In this document: positions 10,651 to 21,053 of the stretch, in pieces
How the letters are laid out: every line of letters begins with the position of its first letter
Numbering within the stretch: position 1 is the first letter of the stretch
NCBI GenBank assembly: GCA_028713995.1
Contig: JAQTNF010000041.1
Coordinates: 1-36,044, forward strand
Length of the DNA: 36,044 nucleotides
Direction of reading: 5' to 3'
DNA from: Deltaproteobacteria bacterium
Lineage (GTDB): Bacteria; Myxococcota_A; Polyangia; JAAYKL01
Program-made: the position numbers and the translations under genes
The notes under the pieces: generated by a model
The model's input: only the letters and a program-made list of their open reading frames with translations
Told to the model about the DNA's origin: nothing
Database searches by the model: none

Positions 10651-11652
10651 ATGACCCTGGAAACGGGCATCGTTTGTGGTGAGTGTGACAGGCTAAACCC
10701 GCGCGACAGCACGAAATGTGTCGAATGCGGCCACGATCTGGCGTTCGCCCTTGCGGGCCAGAAGCCCCGAGCCGAGAAAAATGGGGCGGCCGCGATGCCG
10801 GTGAGAGCCGGCGCCGAGAGTAACAGAACGCCGCCAAAAGCGGCCCAACAAGGAGCAGAGGGAAAGCCCATGGAGCAGGCACGCCACTACATATGCAAGT
10901 CGTGCTACAGCCCCGTCCCGTCAGGGCACAAGTTCTGCGGCAAGTGCGGAACGCCGTCGGACCCGAAGGCCGCGGGCGCGGAGCCGAACTATTTCGGGGA
11001 CATGCAGACGCCGGGCAAGGCCAAGTTGATCCTCATCAAGGGCGAGGGGATGGACGGGATTTCATACCACCTCAACTCCACCGAGCACCTCGCCGGTCGT
11101 TCCGAGGGGGCCATCCTCTTCCCTGAAGACAAATGGCTGTCTCCGAAGCACGCCAATTTCTTCTACGCGAACGGCTCGCTCATGGTGCGCGACGAGAACA
11201 GCGCCAACGGCGTGTTCGTATGCCTGCGGGAGCCCGCGGGCATGGCGCCGGGCACCGTGTTCATGGCCGGGGAGCAGGTGTTCCGCGTCGAGGAGTCGCC
11301 GGCCATCGACGATACGCCCGACGAGGAGGGGACCTTCTTCTTCGCCAGCCCGCGCCGCGACAGCGATTTCCGAGTCGTCCAAGTCCTCGAGGGCGGCGGC
11401 GGCGGTATGGTGGTCCACGCCAAGGAGGCCGAGGTCACCATCGGCCGGGAAGGGTGTGACATGAACTTTCCGAACGACCCGTACATCTCGGGCCACCACG
11501 TCAAGGTGAACCTCGTGCATGGCGTGCTCACACTCGCGGATCTGGGAAGCAAGAACGGGACGTACATTCGCATCACAGGGGACCAGCCGTTGAGCCACGG
11601 CGATTATGTTTTCCTCGGCCGGCAACTGCTGAGGGTCGAAATCACCCTCTAG
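10651..11652 (+). CDS. Paired zinc-ribbon, double FHA-domain protein 1
   Basis: This 333-residue protein has two N-terminal zinc ribbons, 'CGECDRLNPRDSTKCVECG' (about 9-27) and 'CKSCYSPVPSGHKFCGKCG' (about 84-102), separated by a charged linker. Two FHA domains follow, each with the phosphothreonine-reading residues. FHA1 (about 125-205) has 'GRS...LSPKHA...SANG'. FHA2 (about 245-333) has 'IGRE...ISGHHV...LGSKNGTY'. It is a cytosolic adaptor expected to bind Thr-phosphorylated proteins; no Ser/Thr kinase is in the window. ATG at 10651 has only a weak GGTGGG upstream; an in-frame GTG at 10645 is possible. The next gene encodes the same architecture 10 bases downstream. Confidence 0.85.
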   Translation: MTLETGIVCGECDRLNPRDSTKCVECGHDLAFALAGQKPRAEKNGAAAMPVRAGAESNRTPPKAAQQGAEGKPMEQARHYICKSCYSPVPSGHKFCGKCGTPSDPKAAGAEPNYFGDMQTPGKAKLILIKGEGMDGISYHLNSTEHLAGRSEGAILFPEDKWLSPKHANFFYANGSLMVRDENSANGVFVCLREPAGMAPGTVFMAGEQVFRVEESPAIDDTPDEEGTFFFASPRRDSDFRVVQVLEGGGGGMVVHAKEAEVTIGREGCDMNFPNDPYISGHHVKVNLVHGVLTLADLGSKNGTYIRITGDQPLSHGDYVFLGRQLLRVEITL

Positions 11653-11662
11653 GAGAGCCACG

Positions 11663-12763
11663 ATGATAGTCTGCCCGAATTGCGGAAAAGAGAATCAGGA
11701 TCACTATAAGTTCTGCCTGGGATGCGGGTCCGATCTGCCTCGCGCCGGAACCGAGGAGAAGCGCTACTCGAGTCCTACCCCGCCCGCCGGTATCCCGGCG
11801 GTGTCGCCCGAGCCGGTCCCGGCCGCGGCGCCGTCCGGACCCGAGCCCATGGCGTCGCCGATTTCGGCCAAGGCGCCCGCCACGACCAAGGCGCCGCAGG
11901 CAGTCTCGCAGCCGCGCGCGAGCAGGCCCGCTCCCGCGGCGACCCCGAGACAGGCCGAGCCCGATCGGTCCGCGCCTTCCGCCACGTCGGTGCCCGCGCC
12001 GCCGCCCGGTGCGGTAGGTGTCCAGTGCACGAACTGCAACGCCATGATTCCGCCGGGCTTCGCTTTCTGCGGCGCCTGCGGGGCGCCCGTCCCCGGAGCC
12101 CAGCCAGCGGCCCCGGTGATGGCGTTCTCGCCGGACTCGGCCCGCCTCACGCTCATCCAGCCCGACGGCACCGAGGGTGGCCAGGTCGAGATCCCCACGA
12201 CCGAAGTCGCCGTGGGACGCGCCGCCGGCGGCTTCTTCGCGACCGACCCCTACCTGTCGCCGACCCACGCCATCTTCCGGTCGACAGGCAAGGAGGTCAT
12301 TGTCAAGGACGCGGGCAGCCTGAACGGCATCTTCCTCAAGGTGAAGCCCAACGTGCCCATGGATATCCGGACGGGCGACATCTTCCGCATTGGGCAGGAG
12401 CTCATCCTGTTCGAGGCCATCGACCGGGGTTCGGCGGCACCGGACGGCACGGAGCGCATCGGCTCGCCGGTGACCGGGTTGTGGGGCCGTCTGTCGCTGA
12501 TCGTGGGCCGCAAGCGCCTCGGCAACGCGTTCCCGATCGGAGGCGACGGCGTGGTGCTCGGACGCGAGCGCGGCAACATCCTGTTCCCGGAGGACGGCTA
12601 CGTGTCGGGTATCCACATGCGGCTGTACACCGACAAGAACAAGTTCCTCATCATGGATCTCGGCAGCTCGAACGGCTCGTTCACCAAGATCAGGGGCGAA
12701 GTCCGCGTGAAGGCGGGAGATTTCCTTCTGATGGGCCAGCAGCTCTTCCGCGTCGACTTCTAG
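11663..12763 (+). CDS. Paired zinc-ribbon, double FHA-domain protein 2
   Basis: The 366-residue protein repeats the design of its neighbour. Zinc ribbon 1 is 'CPNCGKENQDHYKFCLGCG' (residues 4-22). A Pro/Ala-rich disordered linker (about 30-113) follows, then ribbon 2 'CTNCNAMIPPGFAFCGACG'. FHA1 ('VAVGRAAGG...LSPTHA...GSLNGIF') and FHA2 ('VVLGRERGN...VSGIHM...LGSSNGSF') both keep the Arg, Ser, His and Asn-Gly that contact phosphothreonine. AGGAG overlapping the upstream stop region serves as ribosome-binding site. The pair looks like a tandem duplication that diverged and is cotranscribed. Target proteins are unknown. Confidence 0.87.
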   Translation: MIVCPNCGKENQDHYKFCLGCGSDLPRAGTEEKRYSSPTPPAGIPAVSPEPVPAAAPSGPEPMASPISAKAPATTKAPQAVSQPRASRPAPAATPRQAEPDRSAPSATSVPAPPPGAVGVQCTNCNAMIPPGFAFCGACGAPVPGAQPAAPVMAFSPDSARLTLIQPDGTEGGQVEIPTTEVAVGRAAGGFFATDPYLSPTHAIFRSTGKEVIVKDAGSLNGIFLKVKPNVPMDIRTGDIFRIGQELILFEAIDRGSAAPDGTERIGSPVTGLWGRLSLIVGRKRLGNAFPIGGDGVVLGRERGNILFPEDGYVSGIHMRLYTDKNKFLIMDLGSSNGSFTKIRGEVRVKAGDFLLMGQQLFRVDF

Positions 12764-15115: not shown

Positions 15116-16048
15116 ATGCGCAAGACGGTCCAAGGATTCCTGTGCCTCGCGGCGCTCGCAACGGCGTGCGGCGCGGCGCCCGCGCCCAAGACGAATCAAC
15201 CTGCGCCGACTGTTGCAGCCGCCGGCGCCGGCTCGGCCGAGCCCGGGGCGCAGCCTGCCTGCGAGACCCCGCCGCCCGTTCCGGTCCCCGAGGCCGCCGC
15301 GAGCCCGTGCGACCGTCCTGCCGCGAACGCGCGCGAGGCGTGGAAGCGCATCGAGCTTGCGCGCGGCCTTCCGGAAGGGGAGCGCAAGGGAAGCTGCGGG
15401 CTCGGCTTCGTCGCGGCCGTGGCGCGTTTTCGGACCGTGCCGCAGGATCTGCTCCTGCCGATCGTCCTGCGCGCGGTCGCGGACCGGGCCGGGTTCGACG
15501 CGTGGATGAAGGCCGCGGCGGACCGTGCTCCCGAGGCCTTGGCGCAGGTGGCGGCCATGGACATCGCGCGCAGGTTCGAGGTCGGCAACGACCCCTCGGT
15601 CGTAACCACCGCCGCCTCCGAGTGGAAGAAGCGCCTTGCGGAGCTCCGCGCGGACGGCAAGCTCGCCGCGGCCGGGATCGACGGCGTGCTGTCCGGAGCC
15701 GACGCGCTCGCGGCGCTGCTCGCGCGCGTGAACGAGGTGTACCGCCTGCGCTGCCTGCTCGACGTGAACCCGCTCGGCTTCGCCGTGGCGTGCAAGCCCA
15801 TCCATCCGGCCGGCACGCCCGTGACCCTGAGCTGGAAGACCGCCACGCGCGACGGCCTCATCGAAAGCCTCGAGCTTGAGGAGTGCAAGGGCAAGAGCTG
15901 TACCGCGCTCAAGGCCGGCGCGGGCAAGCTGCTCGATGCCTACCTCGCGCTCGTCAAGGACGCCGAGCAGCTCAAGATGCAGGTGTACGCGGATCGCGTG
16001 AAGGCGTTGCTCGTCCTTCCCCCCTTGCGCAACGCGGGCCCGGGTTAG
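15116..16048 (+). CDS. Lipoprotein of unknown function
   Basis: The 310-residue product has a lipoprotein signal with Cys18 as the anchor ('LAALATACGAAP'), a Pro/Ala-rich linker to about residue 70, and a mostly helical, Ala-rich domain. The C-terminal third has a paired-Cys section ('YRLRCLLDVNPLGFAVACK' and 'LELEECKGKSC'). I do not recognise the family. ATG at 15116 is preferred because GGAGG sits 5 bases upstream; an in-frame ATG at 15104 would add four residues. It probably shares a transcript with the FMN reductase. Its stop overlaps the convergent PilZ stop by four bases. Confidence 0.75.
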   Translation: MRKTVQGFLCLAALATACGAAPAPKTNQPAPTVAAAGAGSAEPGAQPACETPPPVPVPEAAASPCDRPAANAREAWKRIELARGLPEGERKGSCGLGFVAAVARFRTVPQDLLLPIVLRAVADRAGFDAWMKAAADRAPEALAQVAAMDIARRFEVGNDPSVVTTAASEWKKRLAELRADGKLAAAGIDGVLSGADALAALLARVNEVYRLRCLLDVNPLGFAVACKPIHPAGTPVTLSWKTATRDGLIESLELEECKGKSCTALKAGAGKLLDAYLALVKDAEQLKMQVYADRVKALLVLPPLRNAGPG

Positions 16049-16443
16049 TCGCCGTTCCCGCCGGGCCCCATTCCCGGCAGCGGGGGCGGTTGTATCGAGT
16101 GGACCTTTGCCAGCTCCACGAGCCTGTCGATCTTGATCTGGGTGTCCTTGTCCACGTCGACGAACTGCACGCCGAAGCCCCGGCTCGCGCCGTCCACGCC
16201 CTCCTCGAGCCGTACGATGCGCCCGAAAACGCGGATGTTCTCGAGCTCCTCGGGCGTGAAGACGTCGAGCTCGATCCGCTGGCCCGCGCGGAACCACGGC
16301 ATGCGCGGCAGGCCCGCGGTGGAGACGAACAGGCCCACGACGCTGATGTTGCTCACGTCGAGGATGTAGTTCACCGTGCCGCGCAGGACCCGCACCTGAG
16401 CCATGATGTCGTAGCGCGGGTGCCTGCGGCGATCCGTGTCCAT
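16045..16443 (-). CDS. PilZ-domain protein (c-di-GMP receptor)
   Basis: The 132-residue protein is a single PilZ domain with the two cyclic-di-GMP motifs: 'RRRHPRYDI' (R-x3-R, residues 5-13) and 'DVSNISVVGLFV' (D/N-x-S-x2-G, about 29-40). The barrel continues through 'GQRIELDVFTPEELENIRVFGRIVRLEEG' and 'GFGVQFVDVDKD', ending in a helix and a Pro/Gly tail. Stand-alone PilZ proteins bind the messenger and act by contact with a partner, often in motility or exopolysaccharide control. It is the last gene of a minus-strand series, 59 bases after DUF3467. Confidence 0.88.
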   Translation of the reverse strand: MDTDRRRHPRYDIMAQVRVLRGTVNYILDVSNISVVGLFVSTAGLPRMPWFRAGQRIELDVFTPEELENIRVFGRIVRLEEGVDGASRGFGVQFVDVDKDTQIKIDRLVELAKVHSIQPPPLPGMGPGGNGD

Positions 16444-16502: not shown

Positions 16503-16826
16503 TCAGTGGTAGGTCCCCTGTGGCGCGCCGGGCTCCGGCACCGGGATGGTTCCGAACCGTTCCTCGTAGCGCCGCACCAGCTCGCCGAGCCCGGTGAGGA
16601 GCCGCTTGACGGTCTTGGGGTTGGTCACGACGCGCGACACGACCTGTCCCGTGGGGCGCTGCGGCTCGACGAAAATGAAATCGAAGACGAACTCCGCCTC
16701 GTTGTTGTGGATGATCGCCAGGTTCGCGTAGCGGCCGCTCGCCTTGTCGTCCGCCACTCGGATGTTGAGGCGGGCCGGTTGCGCACCTTGCGGGGGCGTC
16801 CCGCCGTCCTTGGGCTTGTCGTCCAT
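16503..16826 (-). CDS. DUF3467 family protein
   Basis: The 107-residue protein matches DUF3467: 'GRYANLAIIHNNEAEFVFDFIFVEPQ' followed by 'GQVVSRVVTNPKTVKRLLTGLGELVRRYEERFG'. The N-terminal 20 residues are charged and disordered. The family is small and common in many phyla; its molecular function is unknown. The ATG is one base downstream of the stop of the large ATPase gene, and its GGAGG site lies inside the end of that gene, so the two are coupled. This fixed pairing suggests a physical or functional link to the ATPase. Confidence 0.85.
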   Translation of the reverse strand: MDDKPKDGGTPPQGAQPARLNIRVADDKASGRYANLAIIHNNEAEFVFDFIFVEPQRPTGQVVSRVVTNPKTVKRLLTGLGELVRRYEERFGTIPVPEPGAPQGTYH

Positions 16827-16827
16827 G

Positions 16828-19788
16828 CTAGTCCTCCGGTTCCATGTCCAGGTCCTCGGTCATGTCGGGGATGGGATCCTTGCCCTTGCGGGCGGACGCC
16901 CTCCTAGTCGGCTTCTTCTTTTCCTTTTCCTTCTCGGGCTGCGGCGCGCGCGCCTCGGCCGGGCCCTTCTGATCCAGGATCTCCTTGATGGTGCGGCTCA
17001 CCTTGTCGCCGGCCTTGGAGTCGATGCGCTGGAAGATGGCCCGCGCCTCCTCGAGACGCGCCCGGCTCGCGTCCACCTCGCCGCGCTCGAGGAGCCGGTT
17101 GCCGAAGGCGTGCAGGGTGCGCGCGGTCTCGAAGTCGTTGCCGATGGAGCGGAACACGGCGAGCGCCTTCTCGTAGAACGCGGCCGCCTCGTTCTCGCCG
17201 CGCACGTTCGACGCGTCGAACATGGTGGCGCCGGCCAGGTCGCCGAGCGCGCGCATCGTGAGCGCCTCCATCTCCTTGCCGCCCATCTCCTGGGCGAGCT
17301 TGAGCGAGCGCTCCAGGTGCACGCGAGCCTGCTCCAAGTTGCCCATCTTCTGGGCCAGGATGCCCATGTTGCGAGACACCTCGGAGTGCAGCAGCCGGTC
17401 GTCGAGGGTGGTCACCACCTCCTCGCAGGCCTCGAAGTGGCGCATGGACGCGGGGAGGTTGCCCTGGTCGCGGCGCGCCTCGCCCAGGTTGTTGTGCAGG
17501 ATGGCGAGCAGGCGCCGGTCGCCGACCTCCTCGGCCAGGGTGAGCGCGGCCTGCCAGCGCGTGACGGCCTTGTCGAGGTCGCCGCGGTTGAAGAGCACGA
17601 TCGCGAGCGCGGACAGGGTCTGGGCCAGGCCGCCCTTGTCGCCCGCCTCGCGGCGCAGATCGAGCGCCTCCTCCAGGTAGCGCTCGGCCTGCGCGTACCG
17701 GCCCCGCCCCGCCTCGATGTGCCCCAGGCTGTGCAGGCACACGGCGATCGAGGGCCGGTTGTCGAGCTTGCGCTGCAGCTCGAGCGCCTGGCTGACGAGC
17801 TTGAAGGCGCGATCGTACGAGCCCTGGCGCCTCGCCAGCTCGCCCAGATCGCCGAGGCACGCCGCCATGCCCTTCTCGTCGCCGGCCGCCTTGAAGAGCG
17901 CCATGCCGCGGTCGATGAAGGCGCGCGCCGCGATCGCGTCGCCGCGCGCCCGGTACAGCCGGCCGATGCGGTTGAGCGCCGCGCCGGCCTTGCCGCGGTG
18001 CATGACGATCCAGGCGTGCTTGAGCATCTCGGTGAAGCACACCTCGGCCGCCTCGTACTCGCCCAGGATCTCGTGCGCCGAGCCGAGGTCGTGCAGGGCG
18101 TCGGCGAGCGACAGCCGGTCGCGTCCATCGGCCAGATCCATGCCGAGCTCGAAGAGCTTGATGGCCTTCTGGTGCAGGTAGCGCGAGCGGGCATAGCGCG
18201 CCGCGCGGAAGTAGGCCATCGCCGCCCGATGGCGCTCGCCGGAACGCTCCCAGTTCTCGGCCTCGGCCTCGGCGAAGAGCGGCGCCGCGTCGAGCGTGGC
18301 GTGTCCGAGCCACAGGGCCACGACGAAGTGGCCCTTCTTGCGCTCCTCCGCGTCCATCTCGGAGAGGATCTGCGTCCGGATGCCGGAGCGCGAGAAGGCG
18401 TACTTGACGCAGCCCTTGATGTCCGATTCCGCGAGCTGCACCACGAACTGCCGCTCCACGAGCCGGGTCAAGGAGGAGGTCACGGACAGGCCGTCGGAAT
18501 CGTCGGACCAGATCTGCCCCGCTGCAATCTTCTCCTTGAGCCGCGCCCGGTTGCGCGCGAGGGCAACCACGGCCTCGTCCCAGAAGACCTCGCCCACGAT
18601 TGCCGCCTGCTCGAGCACGACGCGATCCCTGGGATCGAGGCGCTCTCGCCTCGCCTTGAGCGCGTCGAGCAGCCCCACCGGCATGTCGGTCATGTCGAGG
18701 CGGCTCGGATCCGCGGTCCATGGCTCCTTGCGCGTGTCGACCACGCCCGATTCGATGAGGAGCGACGCGATCTCGCGCATGGAGCCGGCGTTGCCCGCCG
18801 CGCGCCCCACCACGGCCTCGACCAGCTCGGACGGGGGGTCCGCGAGCTTGGGCATGAACGCCGAGAACAGCCTCCGCATGAGATCGTCGTCGAGGGGCTC
18901 GAGCGCGATGCGCACCACGGCCGGGTTGTCGCTGATGGACGCGATCTCGGGACGGCCGCCGGTCACGACCAGGACCGGCACCCCGCCCATGCCGTGGAAC
19001 ACCTCCATCATGAAGATCTTCGACTCGGGCGTGGTCTTCTGCAGGTCGTCGATGATGAGCGCCACGGGGCCGTCCTTGGCCTCGGCCTCGAGGAAGCGGA
19101 CCATGGCCTCGCGCAGGCGCTTGAGCAGGAGCTGGTGATCGGACTCGAGCGACATGAGCACGGGGCTCTGCGGGAACGGCACGCCCGCCATGTATCCGAG
19201 CAGGTGCGCGGTCTCGGTGACGAGCGCGGCCGACCCCATGCCCAGCACCTTGCCGACGTGGTTCGTGACGATCACGCGCGCCGCCGCGAGATCGCCGTCG
19301 TCGAGAATGCCGAACCTGCGCCGCAGCACGCCGCGCAAGGGGGCGAAGGCCTCGCCGTCGCCCCGGCACGTGATGAAAAAAATGCGGTTCTCCGGGATGC
19401 GGCCCGTCAGCCGCTCGGCGAAGGCCGAAAGGAGGGTGCTCGTGCCGAGCCCGGCCTCGCCCGTGACGATCACGCCGCCCACCATGCTCTTCTCCACGCA
19501 CACGTCGAAGCAGTCCTCGAGCACCTGCAGCTCGGCGCGGCGCCCGACGAGCCCGGCGACCGCGGGCTCCGGCTCGGACGCGGCGGACTCGGGCGCTCTT
19601 GCGGCCTGTAGCGGCGCGCCGCAGGATCCGCACACGCGGGCCGTGGAGACGTTGGCCGCACCGCACGCGCGGCACGGGACCATCGAGGTGCGATCCGTGG
19701 CTTCCTTCGCGCACACCGCGCACATGATCTCCTTGCGCCCGATGGGCACGCCGCATCTCGCGCACGTGTTTTCCTTACGCTCGGCCAT
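16828..19788 (-). CDS. Zinc-ribbon, AAA/STAND-like ATPase, TPR-repeat signalling protein with altered Walker A
   Basis: This 986-residue protein has two zinc ribbons ('CARCGVPIGRKEIMCAVC', 9-26; 'CRACGAANVSTARVCGSCG', 39-57), then an AAA_16/STAND-type ATPase domain starting at 'LVGRRAELQVLEDCF' (about 80). The Walker A loop reads 'GEAGLGTSTLL': the Lys that grips ATP phosphate is Thr116. Walker B 'VALIIDDLQ' (D247, D248) is intact. A helical module follows. About twelve TPR repeats occupy roughly 470-940 ('LGSAHEILGEYEAAEVCFTEML' and similar), then a Lys-rich tail ends the protein. It looks like a signal-scaffold NTPase. I chose the ATG at 19788, with GAGGGA 5 bases upstream, over one 36 bases earlier that lacks a site. 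Confidence 0.87.
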   Translation of the reverse strand: MAERKENTCARCGVPIGRKEIMCAVCAKEATDRTSMVPCRACGAANVSTARVCGSCGAPLQAARAPESAASEPEPAVAGLVGRRAELQVLEDCFDVCVEKSMVGGVIVTGEAGLGTSTLLSAFAERLTGRIPENRIFFITCRGDGEAFAPLRGVLRRRFGILDDGDLAAARVIVTNHVGKVLGMGSAALVTETAHLLGYMAGVPFPQSPVLMSLESDHQLLLKRLREAMVRFLEAEAKDGPVALIIDDLQKTTPESKIFMMEVFHGMGGVPVLVVTGGRPEIASISDNPAVVRIALEPLDDDLMRRLFSAFMPKLADPPSELVEAVVGRAAGNAGSMREIASLLIESGVVDTRKEPWTADPSRLDMTDMPVGLLDALKARRERLDPRDRVVLEQAAIVGEVFWDEAVVALARNRARLKEKIAAGQIWSDDSDGLSVTSSLTRLVERQFVVQLAESDIKGCVKYAFSRSGIRTQILSEMDAEERKKGHFVVALWLGHATLDAAPLFAEAEAENWERSGERHRAAMAYFRAARYARSRYLHQKAIKLFELGMDLADGRDRLSLADALHDLGSAHEILGEYEAAEVCFTEMLKHAWIVMHRGKAGAALNRIGRLYRARGDAIAARAFIDRGMALFKAAGDEKGMAACLGDLGELARRQGSYDRAFKLVSQALELQRKLDNRPSIAVCLHSLGHIEAGRGRYAQAERYLEEALDLRREAGDKGGLAQTLSALAIVLFNRGDLDKAVTRWQAALTLAEEVGDRRLLAILHNNLGEARRDQGNLPASMRHFEACEEVVTTLDDRLLHSEVSRNMGILAQKMGNLEQARVHLERSLKLAQEMGGKEMEALTMRALGDLAGATMFDASNVRGENEAAAFYEKALAVFRSIGNDFETARTLHAFGNRLLERGEVDASRARLEEARAIFQRIDSKAGDKVSRTIKEILDQKGPAEARAPQPEKEKEKKKPTRRASARKGKDPIPDMTEDLDMEPED

Positions 19789-19911: not shown

Positions 19912-20721
19912 TCAGCCGAGGAGCGCGAGCGCGAAGGATGCGAGCGCGAAGAGGAGCCCGCGCCGGGAGGAGGCGTTGCCGACGTCGCACGTGAGCCCGC
20001 AGCTGCCCTTGGCCTCGCACGCGTTGCCCTGGCACTGCGCGTCGCCCTCATAAGTGACATCGAAATTCGTGTTCTCCTCCACCCACTGCACGGCGTCCTC
20101 GAGCGAAAAGTCGCCCATGAATTCGCCGTCGCACTCGAGCACGCCGTCCACGTCGCAGTAACCCTCGCAGTCCACCTGCAAGTCCGCGTTGCACGTCACA
20201 TTGGCGTTGATGGAGCAGTCCATGTGGCAGTCGAAGTCGGCCTCGGCCTGGCATGCGCCCTCGCACGAGGCGCCGCACGAGGCGTCGCAGTCCACCTCGG
20301 CCGGCGCGCCTTCGCACGACGCGCCGCACTCGGCGTCGCAGAACGACCCGCACTCGCCGTCGCAGTAGGCCGCGTCGCCGGTGGAGGCGCACTCGCCCTC
20401 GCACGAGGCCTCGCACCCGCCGCCGCAGTACCCGTCGCACGTGAATGAGCCCGGGCTCGCGCCGCACTCGCCCGTGCAGTCGGCCGTGCAGCCCGAGGTG
20501 CACGACGCGTCGATGGAGAGGCCGTCGCATTCGCCGTCGCACGCGGCGTCCACGGCTCCCCCGCACTTGGCGTCGAAGCTCATGTCGTCGCACTCGGCCT
20601 TGCACTCCACGCCCGAGTACCAACGGCACTCGGCCGAGATCTCCACGGACTTTGCCGCCGCAACGGTTCCGAAGAGGGCGACCGCGAGCGCGGCCGCGAC
20701 GGCAAGCGTGATCCTGCTCAT
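19912..20721 (-). CDS. Secreted Cys-rich repeat protein with C-terminal membrane anchor
   Basis: The 269-residue protein has a signal peptide (1 to about 23, 'AVALFGTVAAAKS'). A region of about 215 residues contains 34 Cys, mostly spaced C-x3-C or C-x2/4-C, in acidic, Gly-rich units such as 'CDGECDGLSIDASCTSGCTADCTGEC'. A short Cys-poor stretch ('LEDAVQWVEENTNFDVTYEGD') precedes the last Cys. The C-terminus is 'NASSRRGLLFALASFALALLG', a hydrophobic anchor after two Arg. Even Cys count fits 17 disulfides in an extracellular stalk-like domain. Such proteins occur in myxobacteria-like genomes and are often misnamed; no function is known. AAGGGGG precedes the ATG. It lies 14 bases downstream of ppnP. 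Confidence 0.8.
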   Translation of the reverse strand: MSRITLAVAAALAVALFGTVAAAKSVEISAECRWYSGVECKAECDDMSFDAKCGGAVDAACDGECDGLSIDASCTSGCTADCTGECGASPGSFTCDGYCGGGCEASCEGECASTGDAAYCDGECGSFCDAECGASCEGAPAEVDCDASCGASCEGACQAEADFDCHMDCSINANVTCNADLQVDCEGYCDVDGVLECDGEFMGDFSLEDAVQWVEENTNFDVTYEGDAQCQGNACEAKGSCGLTCDVGNASSRRGLLFALASFALALLG

Positions 20722-20735
20722 GGCGAGCCCCCTTT

Positions 20736-21053
20736 TCACTTGTAGGTGCAGCAGTAGTCGGCCACGCGGTCGATGCGCAGCTTGAACGACGCGTTGCCGG
20801 GAACTTCGTAGCTCTGGCCTTCCTTGAACGTCTTCCAAATCGCGTCGCCGGGCAGGAGCACCTTCATCTCGCCGCCGAGCACCTCCATCACCTCGGGCGC
20901 GCCCGTGTTGAACTCGTAGTCGCCCGTGAGCATCACGCCCAGGGTCTTGCGCGACCCGTCCGCGAAGAGCACGGTGCGGCTCGTCACCTTGCCGTCGTAA
21001 TAAACGTTGGCCTTCCTCACCACGGTCACGTTCTCGAAACGGTCTGTGCTCAT
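20736..21053 (-). CDS. ppnP: Pyrimidine/purine nucleoside phosphorylase PpnP
   Basis: This 105-residue single-domain cupin matches PpnP (YaiE, DUF1255): '[64 protein letters not shown]' and '[26 protein letters not shown]'. The family catalyses phosphorolysis of several nucleosides to free base and ribose 1-phosphate in the cytosol. The ATG at 21053 overlaps the stop of the upstream HEAT-repeat gene (ATGA). The longer frame upstream lies inside that gene. The pairing of a cytosolic salvage enzyme with two secreted proteins looks functionally unrelated and may only reflect gene packing. Confidence 0.92.

Follow-up and report, generated by a model that had tools for sequence, protein, structure and literature searches.

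STAND NTPases are considered to depend on their P-loop lysine for handling nucleotides. In those that carry TPR sensors, the AAA_16/MalT type represented by 6mfv, the NTPase domain is followed by the TPRs. Two described groups are the closest precedents for a protein of this organisation with a disabled P-loop. The SAMD9 family is presented in a passage of PMC5445408 as having a STAND-like NTPase and TPRs, with the Walker A lysine replaced by glycine (GGT/S). The iSTAND component of the MoxR-vWA ternary systems is, in an excerpt of PMC7159879, a bacterial STAND domain judged to be catalytically inactive; the ternary systems are defined by adjacent MoxR and vWA genes.

The stretch of DNA analysed here, referred to as the window, is the 36,044-nucleotide contig JAQTNF010000041.1 from a Deltaproteobacteria bacterium (assembly GCA_028713995.1). 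On its minus strand, at 16831–19788, lies a gene for a STAND-type NTPase/TPR protein of 986 residues that lacks the P-loop lysine; direct reading of the frame places the start at 19788 and the stop codon at 16828–16830. An alternative ATG 12 codons upstream (19824) would give 998 residues; the orthologues start at the equivalent of 19788. The zinc-ribbon/ATPase/TPR architecture proposed in a preliminary description of the locus is borne out. The AAA_16 NTPase domain (residues 80–274) scores 60.2 bits against a Pfam cut-off of 32.6, and TPR_12 scores 158.8 bits against 30.1, with TPR_MalT also above its cut-off. The Pfam double zinc ribbon (DZR) reaches 22.2 bits, below its cut-off of 27.3, but the eight cysteines of two zinc ribbons are present as four CxxC pairs at residues 9–61 (19606–19764, minus strand) and are invariant in all seven full orthologues. 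In homologues from other families, at most one ribbon was seen when the aligned N-terminal stretch was inspected by eye.

The Walker A segment, GEAGLGTSTLL (residues 110–120; 19429–19461, minus strand), lies in the context TGEAGLGTSTL, and its codon 19443–19441 is ACG, specifying Thr116 where the pattern GxxxxGK[ST] has lysine. The earlier reading of GLGTST at this codon is thus correct, as is that of an intact Walker B motif: VALIIDD spans residues 242–248 (19045–19065, minus strand), and its Asp247 is kept in 8/8 orthologues. A winged-helix motif, KYAFSRSGIR (residues 462–471; 18376–18405, minus strand), containing K462 and R467, precedes the TPR superhelix (about residues 556–940; 16969–18123, minus strand), which is the most conserved part of the protein. 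The tail that follows the TPRs (16831–16968, minus strand) is disordered in the predicted model; it ends in a short acidic motif, IPDMTEDLE or alike, in six of the eight orthologues, the preceding tail being unconserved. Fold searches with the whole model gave matches dominated by TPR proteins, the TPR model resembling LGN, Rap and MalT, and a PDB sequence search with the region from the NTPase to the winged helix returned one weak, unrelated match. By homology only, through its AAA_16 domain, Walker B motif, winged-helix region and TPRs, the protein is assigned to the STAND/AAA_16 superfamily; with Thr116 in the lysine site, it does not carry the Walker A signature GxxxxGK[ST] expected of a catalytically competent member.

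Set against the AAA_16/MalT-type STAND NTPases, the protein has the same order of NTPase and TPRs, and a Foldseek match to 6mfv has an E-value of 3.2e-9 (rank 24, with a loose superposition); it differs in the loss of the P-loop lysine, in its second zinc ribbon and in having a DUF3467 partner. With SAMD9 it shares a STAND-like NTPase followed by TPRs and a replaced Walker A lysine, but the SAMD9 P-loop is GGT/S whereas here it is G[TVA][ST], and the AlbA, Sir2-like and OB-fold domains of SAMD9 do not appear among the best 25 of 26 Pfam families matched. On this comparison of sequences, we do not place it in the SAMD9 family. Neither MoxR nor vWA was found in 19 scanned proteins (14 of the window and five from loci L081, L084, L085 and L087), and among these proteins there is no iSTAND ternary system. 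Scores against the HaaT TPR protein (NF041717; 106.2 bits, NCBIfam cut-off 1125) and the TOMM kinase/cyclase (TIGR03903; 83.8 bits, NCBIfam cut-off 705.75) are below threshold. A defence system was considered and rejected, PADLOC matches being confined to the TPR and NTPase parts of the protein, with none for DUF3467. Our literature searches found no paper on the combination of zinc ribbon, TPR and AAA in myxobacteria and none on this lysine-less clade with DUF3467. As SAMD9 and iSTAND provide precedents and the protein belongs to neither, we conclude that lysine-less STAND-TPR proteins are already known as a kind, of which the present clade, paired with DUF3467 in an operon, is a new form.

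The order to which the window belongs comprises 14 genomes, all of one family, and an orthologue is present in eight of them, spanning six genera. Identities are 56–63% over the full or C-terminal length. In one genome (G007) the orthologue is split over two contigs and its halves were read apart, the N-terminal part, on a separate contig, being 49% identical. The counterparts are carried by the Deltaproteobacteria metagenome genomes CSMAG_220, CSMAG_306, CSMAG_2956 and S24.Bin071 and the Myxococcota metagenome genomes PL23a_bin.40, MO_167.B37 and Prado146. The residue at the lysine site is neutral in all eight proteins: threonine in the window, valine in three proteins from one genus, alanine in two, valine in another and threonine in G007. 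The preliminary description had considered a conserved threonine; this is ruled out by the alternation of Thr, Val and Ala. A sequencing error or a local mutation would require a single base change, AAG to ACG. We regard it as ruled out, since Thr, Val or Ala stands in place of lysine in eight genomes of six genera.

Homologues are widespread in the class, occurring at an E-value of 1e-80 or better in 215 of 317 genomes, including the order's own eight, with at most two candidates scored per genome. Among 102 homologues from other families of the class, the Walker A residue is lysine in 91, arginine in 11 and neutral in none. This set consists of 42 different homologues (35 Lys, 7 Arg) and 60 additional stretches (56 Lys, 4 Arg). 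Nine of the latter escaped the strict pattern and were read by eye; L229 and L248 gave the same reading, a few of the stretches are near-copies, and L201 and L192, which duplicate L010 and L011, were omitted from the counts. The arginine variants, with the pattern GxGR[TS], are at L182, L183, L187, L188, L194, L202, L203, L205, L225, L231 and L243. Had every homologue carried lysine, the earlier claim would have fallen; it stands, the orthologues being uniformly neutral at this site. In a tree of 49 proteins calculated with the lysine column omitted, the seven lysine-less rows form one clade (SH-aLRT 100), requiring one change at this site. The tree was built by a quick method; 27 of its 46 internal branches have good support, and the placement of the long-branched L016 and L030 is unsure. 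G007 was excluded from it, as from the dN/dS and identity-ratio calculations, so that tree and ratio represent seven of the eight orthologues. The best explanation of these sequences is a single loss of the P-loop lysine, either in the ancestor of one order of Myxococcota-type bacteria or earlier.

The remainder of the nucleotide-binding apparatus has been retained. The seven full orthologues all have Gly110, Gly113, Gly115, Ser/Thr117 and Asp247, as does the N-terminal portion of the eighth. Within one genus (g2; three genomes, three pairs), dN/dS is 0.031–0.053 for the NTPase domain and 0.06–0.10 for the whole gene, and in two of the three pairs the NTPase value is lower than that of the TPRs. 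We conclude that, within this genus, purifying selection acts on the NTPase domain. Between genera, the mean identity among orthologues is 0.54 for the NTPase domain and 0.72 for the TPRs, with 37 of 196 and 171 of 385 columns invariant, respectively. The ratio of NTPase to TPR identity is 0.68 for lysine-less orthologues from different genera (18 pairs, range 0.58–0.82), compared with 0.93 for Lys/Arg homologues of similar distance (250 pairs, range 0.67–1.24) and 0.90 for homologues with lysine only (161 pairs); the ranges overlap and the pairs share sequences, so the comparison serves as a description rather than a test. As judged from these alignments, constraint has shifted from the NTPase domain to the TPRs between genera. 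Taken with the purifying selection in g2, the lowered ratio suggests an NTPase domain that is kept yet less important than the TPRs, in the manner of pseudo-enzymes turned scaffolds.

In our best reading, to which we assign a probability of about one half, the protein is a disabled STAND-TPR scaffold, or pseudo-NTPase, with DUF3467 as its operon partner. Its starting point would be an AAA_16 NTPase of the STAND type that carries TPRs at its C terminus, a sort common in the class, which lost the P-loop lysine once and which in this order has the second zinc ribbon and the DUF3467 operon. ATP cycling would be gone, with Mg-nucleotide retained at most as a ligand in a structural or slow sensing role; partner binding, the working function, would fall to the surface of the TPR superhelix, and the zinc ribbons would dock the protein. 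The reading accommodates the observed loss of the lysine in all eight proteins, its single change on the tree, the adjacency of DUF3467 in 8/8 genomes, the kept glycines, Ser/Thr and Asp, and the shift of constraint. The proposal in the preliminary description of a weak ATP binder, sensor or regulatory scaffold is partly supported, in that it fits the clade-wide loss and the apparent shift of constraint to the TPRs. Two caveats apply: a functional enzyme would equally account for the low NTPase dN/dS in g2, and the new basic residues at K462, R/K467 and R558 may compensate for the loss. Since the lysine loss and the linkage to DUF3467 each have roughly one origin, their association amounts to one event and carries no statistical proof.

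The NTPase fold could have gone further, to a pure remnant, a spacer that binds nothing and leaves all of the work to the TPRs and zinc ribbons. Its greater divergence between genera and the drift of the lysine-site residue among Thr, Val and Ala would be expected of such a spacer; retention of the three P-loop glycines, Ser/Thr117 and Asp247 in every orthologue and the g2 dN/dS of 0.03–0.05 would not, and we think this unlikely.

Compensation for the lost charge was considered at the winged helix. Positions 462, 467 and 558 are basic in all eight lysine-less proteins and in none of the 42 different homologues, and position 387 is basic in all eight and in one of the 42. The motif reads KYAF(A/S/V)(R/K)SG(I/V)R in the lysine-less proteins and, for example, EYRFAYPP or EYRFLHS in homologues. 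Site 467 is histidine in eight of the 42, and an FxH motif (FRHALVRD-like) was recognised by eye in five of ten more distant AAA_16 proteins. In the plant NLR NRC1, an extract of PMC6713354 has the Walker A lysine and the histidine of the MHD motif both contacting β-phosphate oxygens of ADP. By analogy, the FxH histidine may face the β-phosphate, and a nucleotide-gated switch might have been retained here through relocation of the lysine charge to the winged-helix domain, with R/K467 replacing that histidine. The basic residues at 462 and 467 in the lysine-less proteins, and the preservation of the P-loop glycines and Mg ligands, are consistent with this. Several observations speak against it. 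No match at the winged helix occurs among the best 60 of 364 solved-structure matches to a profile of 29 relatives, many of them P-loop ATPases; the equivalence of FxH to MHD is therefore one of motif only. The predicted model has a pLDDT below 50 over residues 355–470, and R/K467 could not be placed. A lysine-bearing protein in the same genome (L265) also has arginine at the site equivalent to 467, conserved basic residues were gained at two further positions (387 and 558), and the NTPase domain has become less constrained when compared with the TPRs. We consider a relocated charge improbable. A fuller version, in which R/K467 together with K462 takes over the lysine charge, only the closed state holds phosphate and DUF3467 is a dedicated reader of that state, seems more improbable still; if true, it would be a STAND switch with a different geometry of phosphate contact.

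The second gene of the proposed scaffold operon encodes DUF3467 (PF11950; 77.4 bits against a Pfam cut-off of 25), a protein of 107 residues at 16503–16826 on the minus strand. Its ATG at 16826 is one base past the upstream stop codon (16830–16828), and its ribosome-binding GGAGG sits within the final codons of the preceding gene, exactly as first described. DUF3467 is directly downstream on the same strand in all eight genomes with an orthologue, with gaps of 1, 18, 18, 17, 48, 2, 35 and −8 nt. What comes after it varies across the order: a PilZ gene, an ABC transporter gene or an Lnb-like gene. In the window a PilZ-domain gene (16045–16443, minus strand) begins 59 bp downstream, and the three g2 genomes have a PilZ gene (by Pfam, L081) or a look-alike (by eye, L082 and L083). 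A DrrA-like ABC transporter ATPase takes the place of PilZ at L084 and L085 (genomes G002 and G009).

DUF3467 itself is more widely distributed: 34 of 59 relatives carry a single copy each. Five of the six members of the order without the lysine-less protein have it, so DUF3467 can do without this partner. In a survey of the genome collection that yielded 78 loci with DUF3467 and covered up to 8 kb per side, with some contigs ending sooner, the lysine-less protein was nearby in seven, all from the window's order, and absent from 71 within the DNA examined. In 20 genomes of other families that have a clear homologue of the protein as well as a DUF3467, the two are on different contigs among the matches listed, the assemblies being fragmented. 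The suggestion that DUF3467 always follows therefore stands for the eight orthologues and fails as a general rule, the tie being seen in the window's order only. That DUF3467 is an unrelated neighbour on a shared message, the two products never meeting, would agree with its presence alone in five genomes of the order and with the 71 loci lacking the protein. Such an arrangement sits poorly with an adjacency maintained on the same strand, within 48 nt or overlapping, in eight genomes of six genera while the downstream genes vary, and we regard it as doubtful.

A DUF3467 tree of 29 rows, which leaves out the G003 protein (one of the five stand-alone proteins) and five of eight further rows from the class, places the order's DUF3467 proteins in a clade of their own (100/99), inside which four stand-alone proteins group together (95/89). 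The ATPase-linked proteins are not one clade in it: two changes are required, and 2% of 200 bootstrap trees unite them. A single ancestral pairing followed by loss of the ATPase fits this tree, in which branching within the order is poorly supported. At L061–L065, the loci of order members without the ATPase, DUF3467 adjoins other genes, and the tree points to loss of the ATPase in these members. Elsewhere in the class, at 10 of 21 loci from other families (L067–L091), a simple pattern picks up a RuvX-like motif near DUF3467. The idea that DUF3467 follows rpoC in Bacteroidota was unsupported, by motif scan and reading frames, at the two loci examined, L164 and L170. In the literature searched, DUF3467 is named only in PMC11986949, a portion of which lists it as an unknown protein increased in chlorhexidine-treated Porphyromonas gingivalis.

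DUF3467 is predicted to fold as β-β-β-α, with three strands followed by a single long helix (pLDDT 85). Its best structural neighbours by VIA-align are COMM domains (Z 5.0–5.5, the best superposing at 3.4 Å over 58 residues), followed by Pur-alpha (Z 4.8) and PC4 (Z 4.7), all of these scores being too low for a match to carry much weight. Foldseek gave a best E-value of 0.31, to a target that is none of the three, and no sequence relatives were found in the PDB up to an E-value of 1. COMM, Pur-alpha and PC4 families self-associate, and it is from this that we guess DUF3467 to be a dimeric subunit. Made from the same message as the disabled scaffold, it would be a small self-associating subunit working with it.

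The order thus offers eight diverged natural lysine-less proteins beside about 100 Lys/Arg relatives in one bacterial class, a natural series that makes the role of a STAND protein without ATP turnover directly testable, and DUF3467, a widespread family, gains a candidate partner. Upstream of the operon in the window, a gene at 19912–20838 (minus strand) encodes a cysteine-rich repeat protein with no Pfam match up to an E-value of 0.01. The same window that holds the zinc-ribbon pseudo-NTPase also contains, at 10651–12760 on the plus strand, two tandem genes that each encode zinc ribbons and FHA domains.
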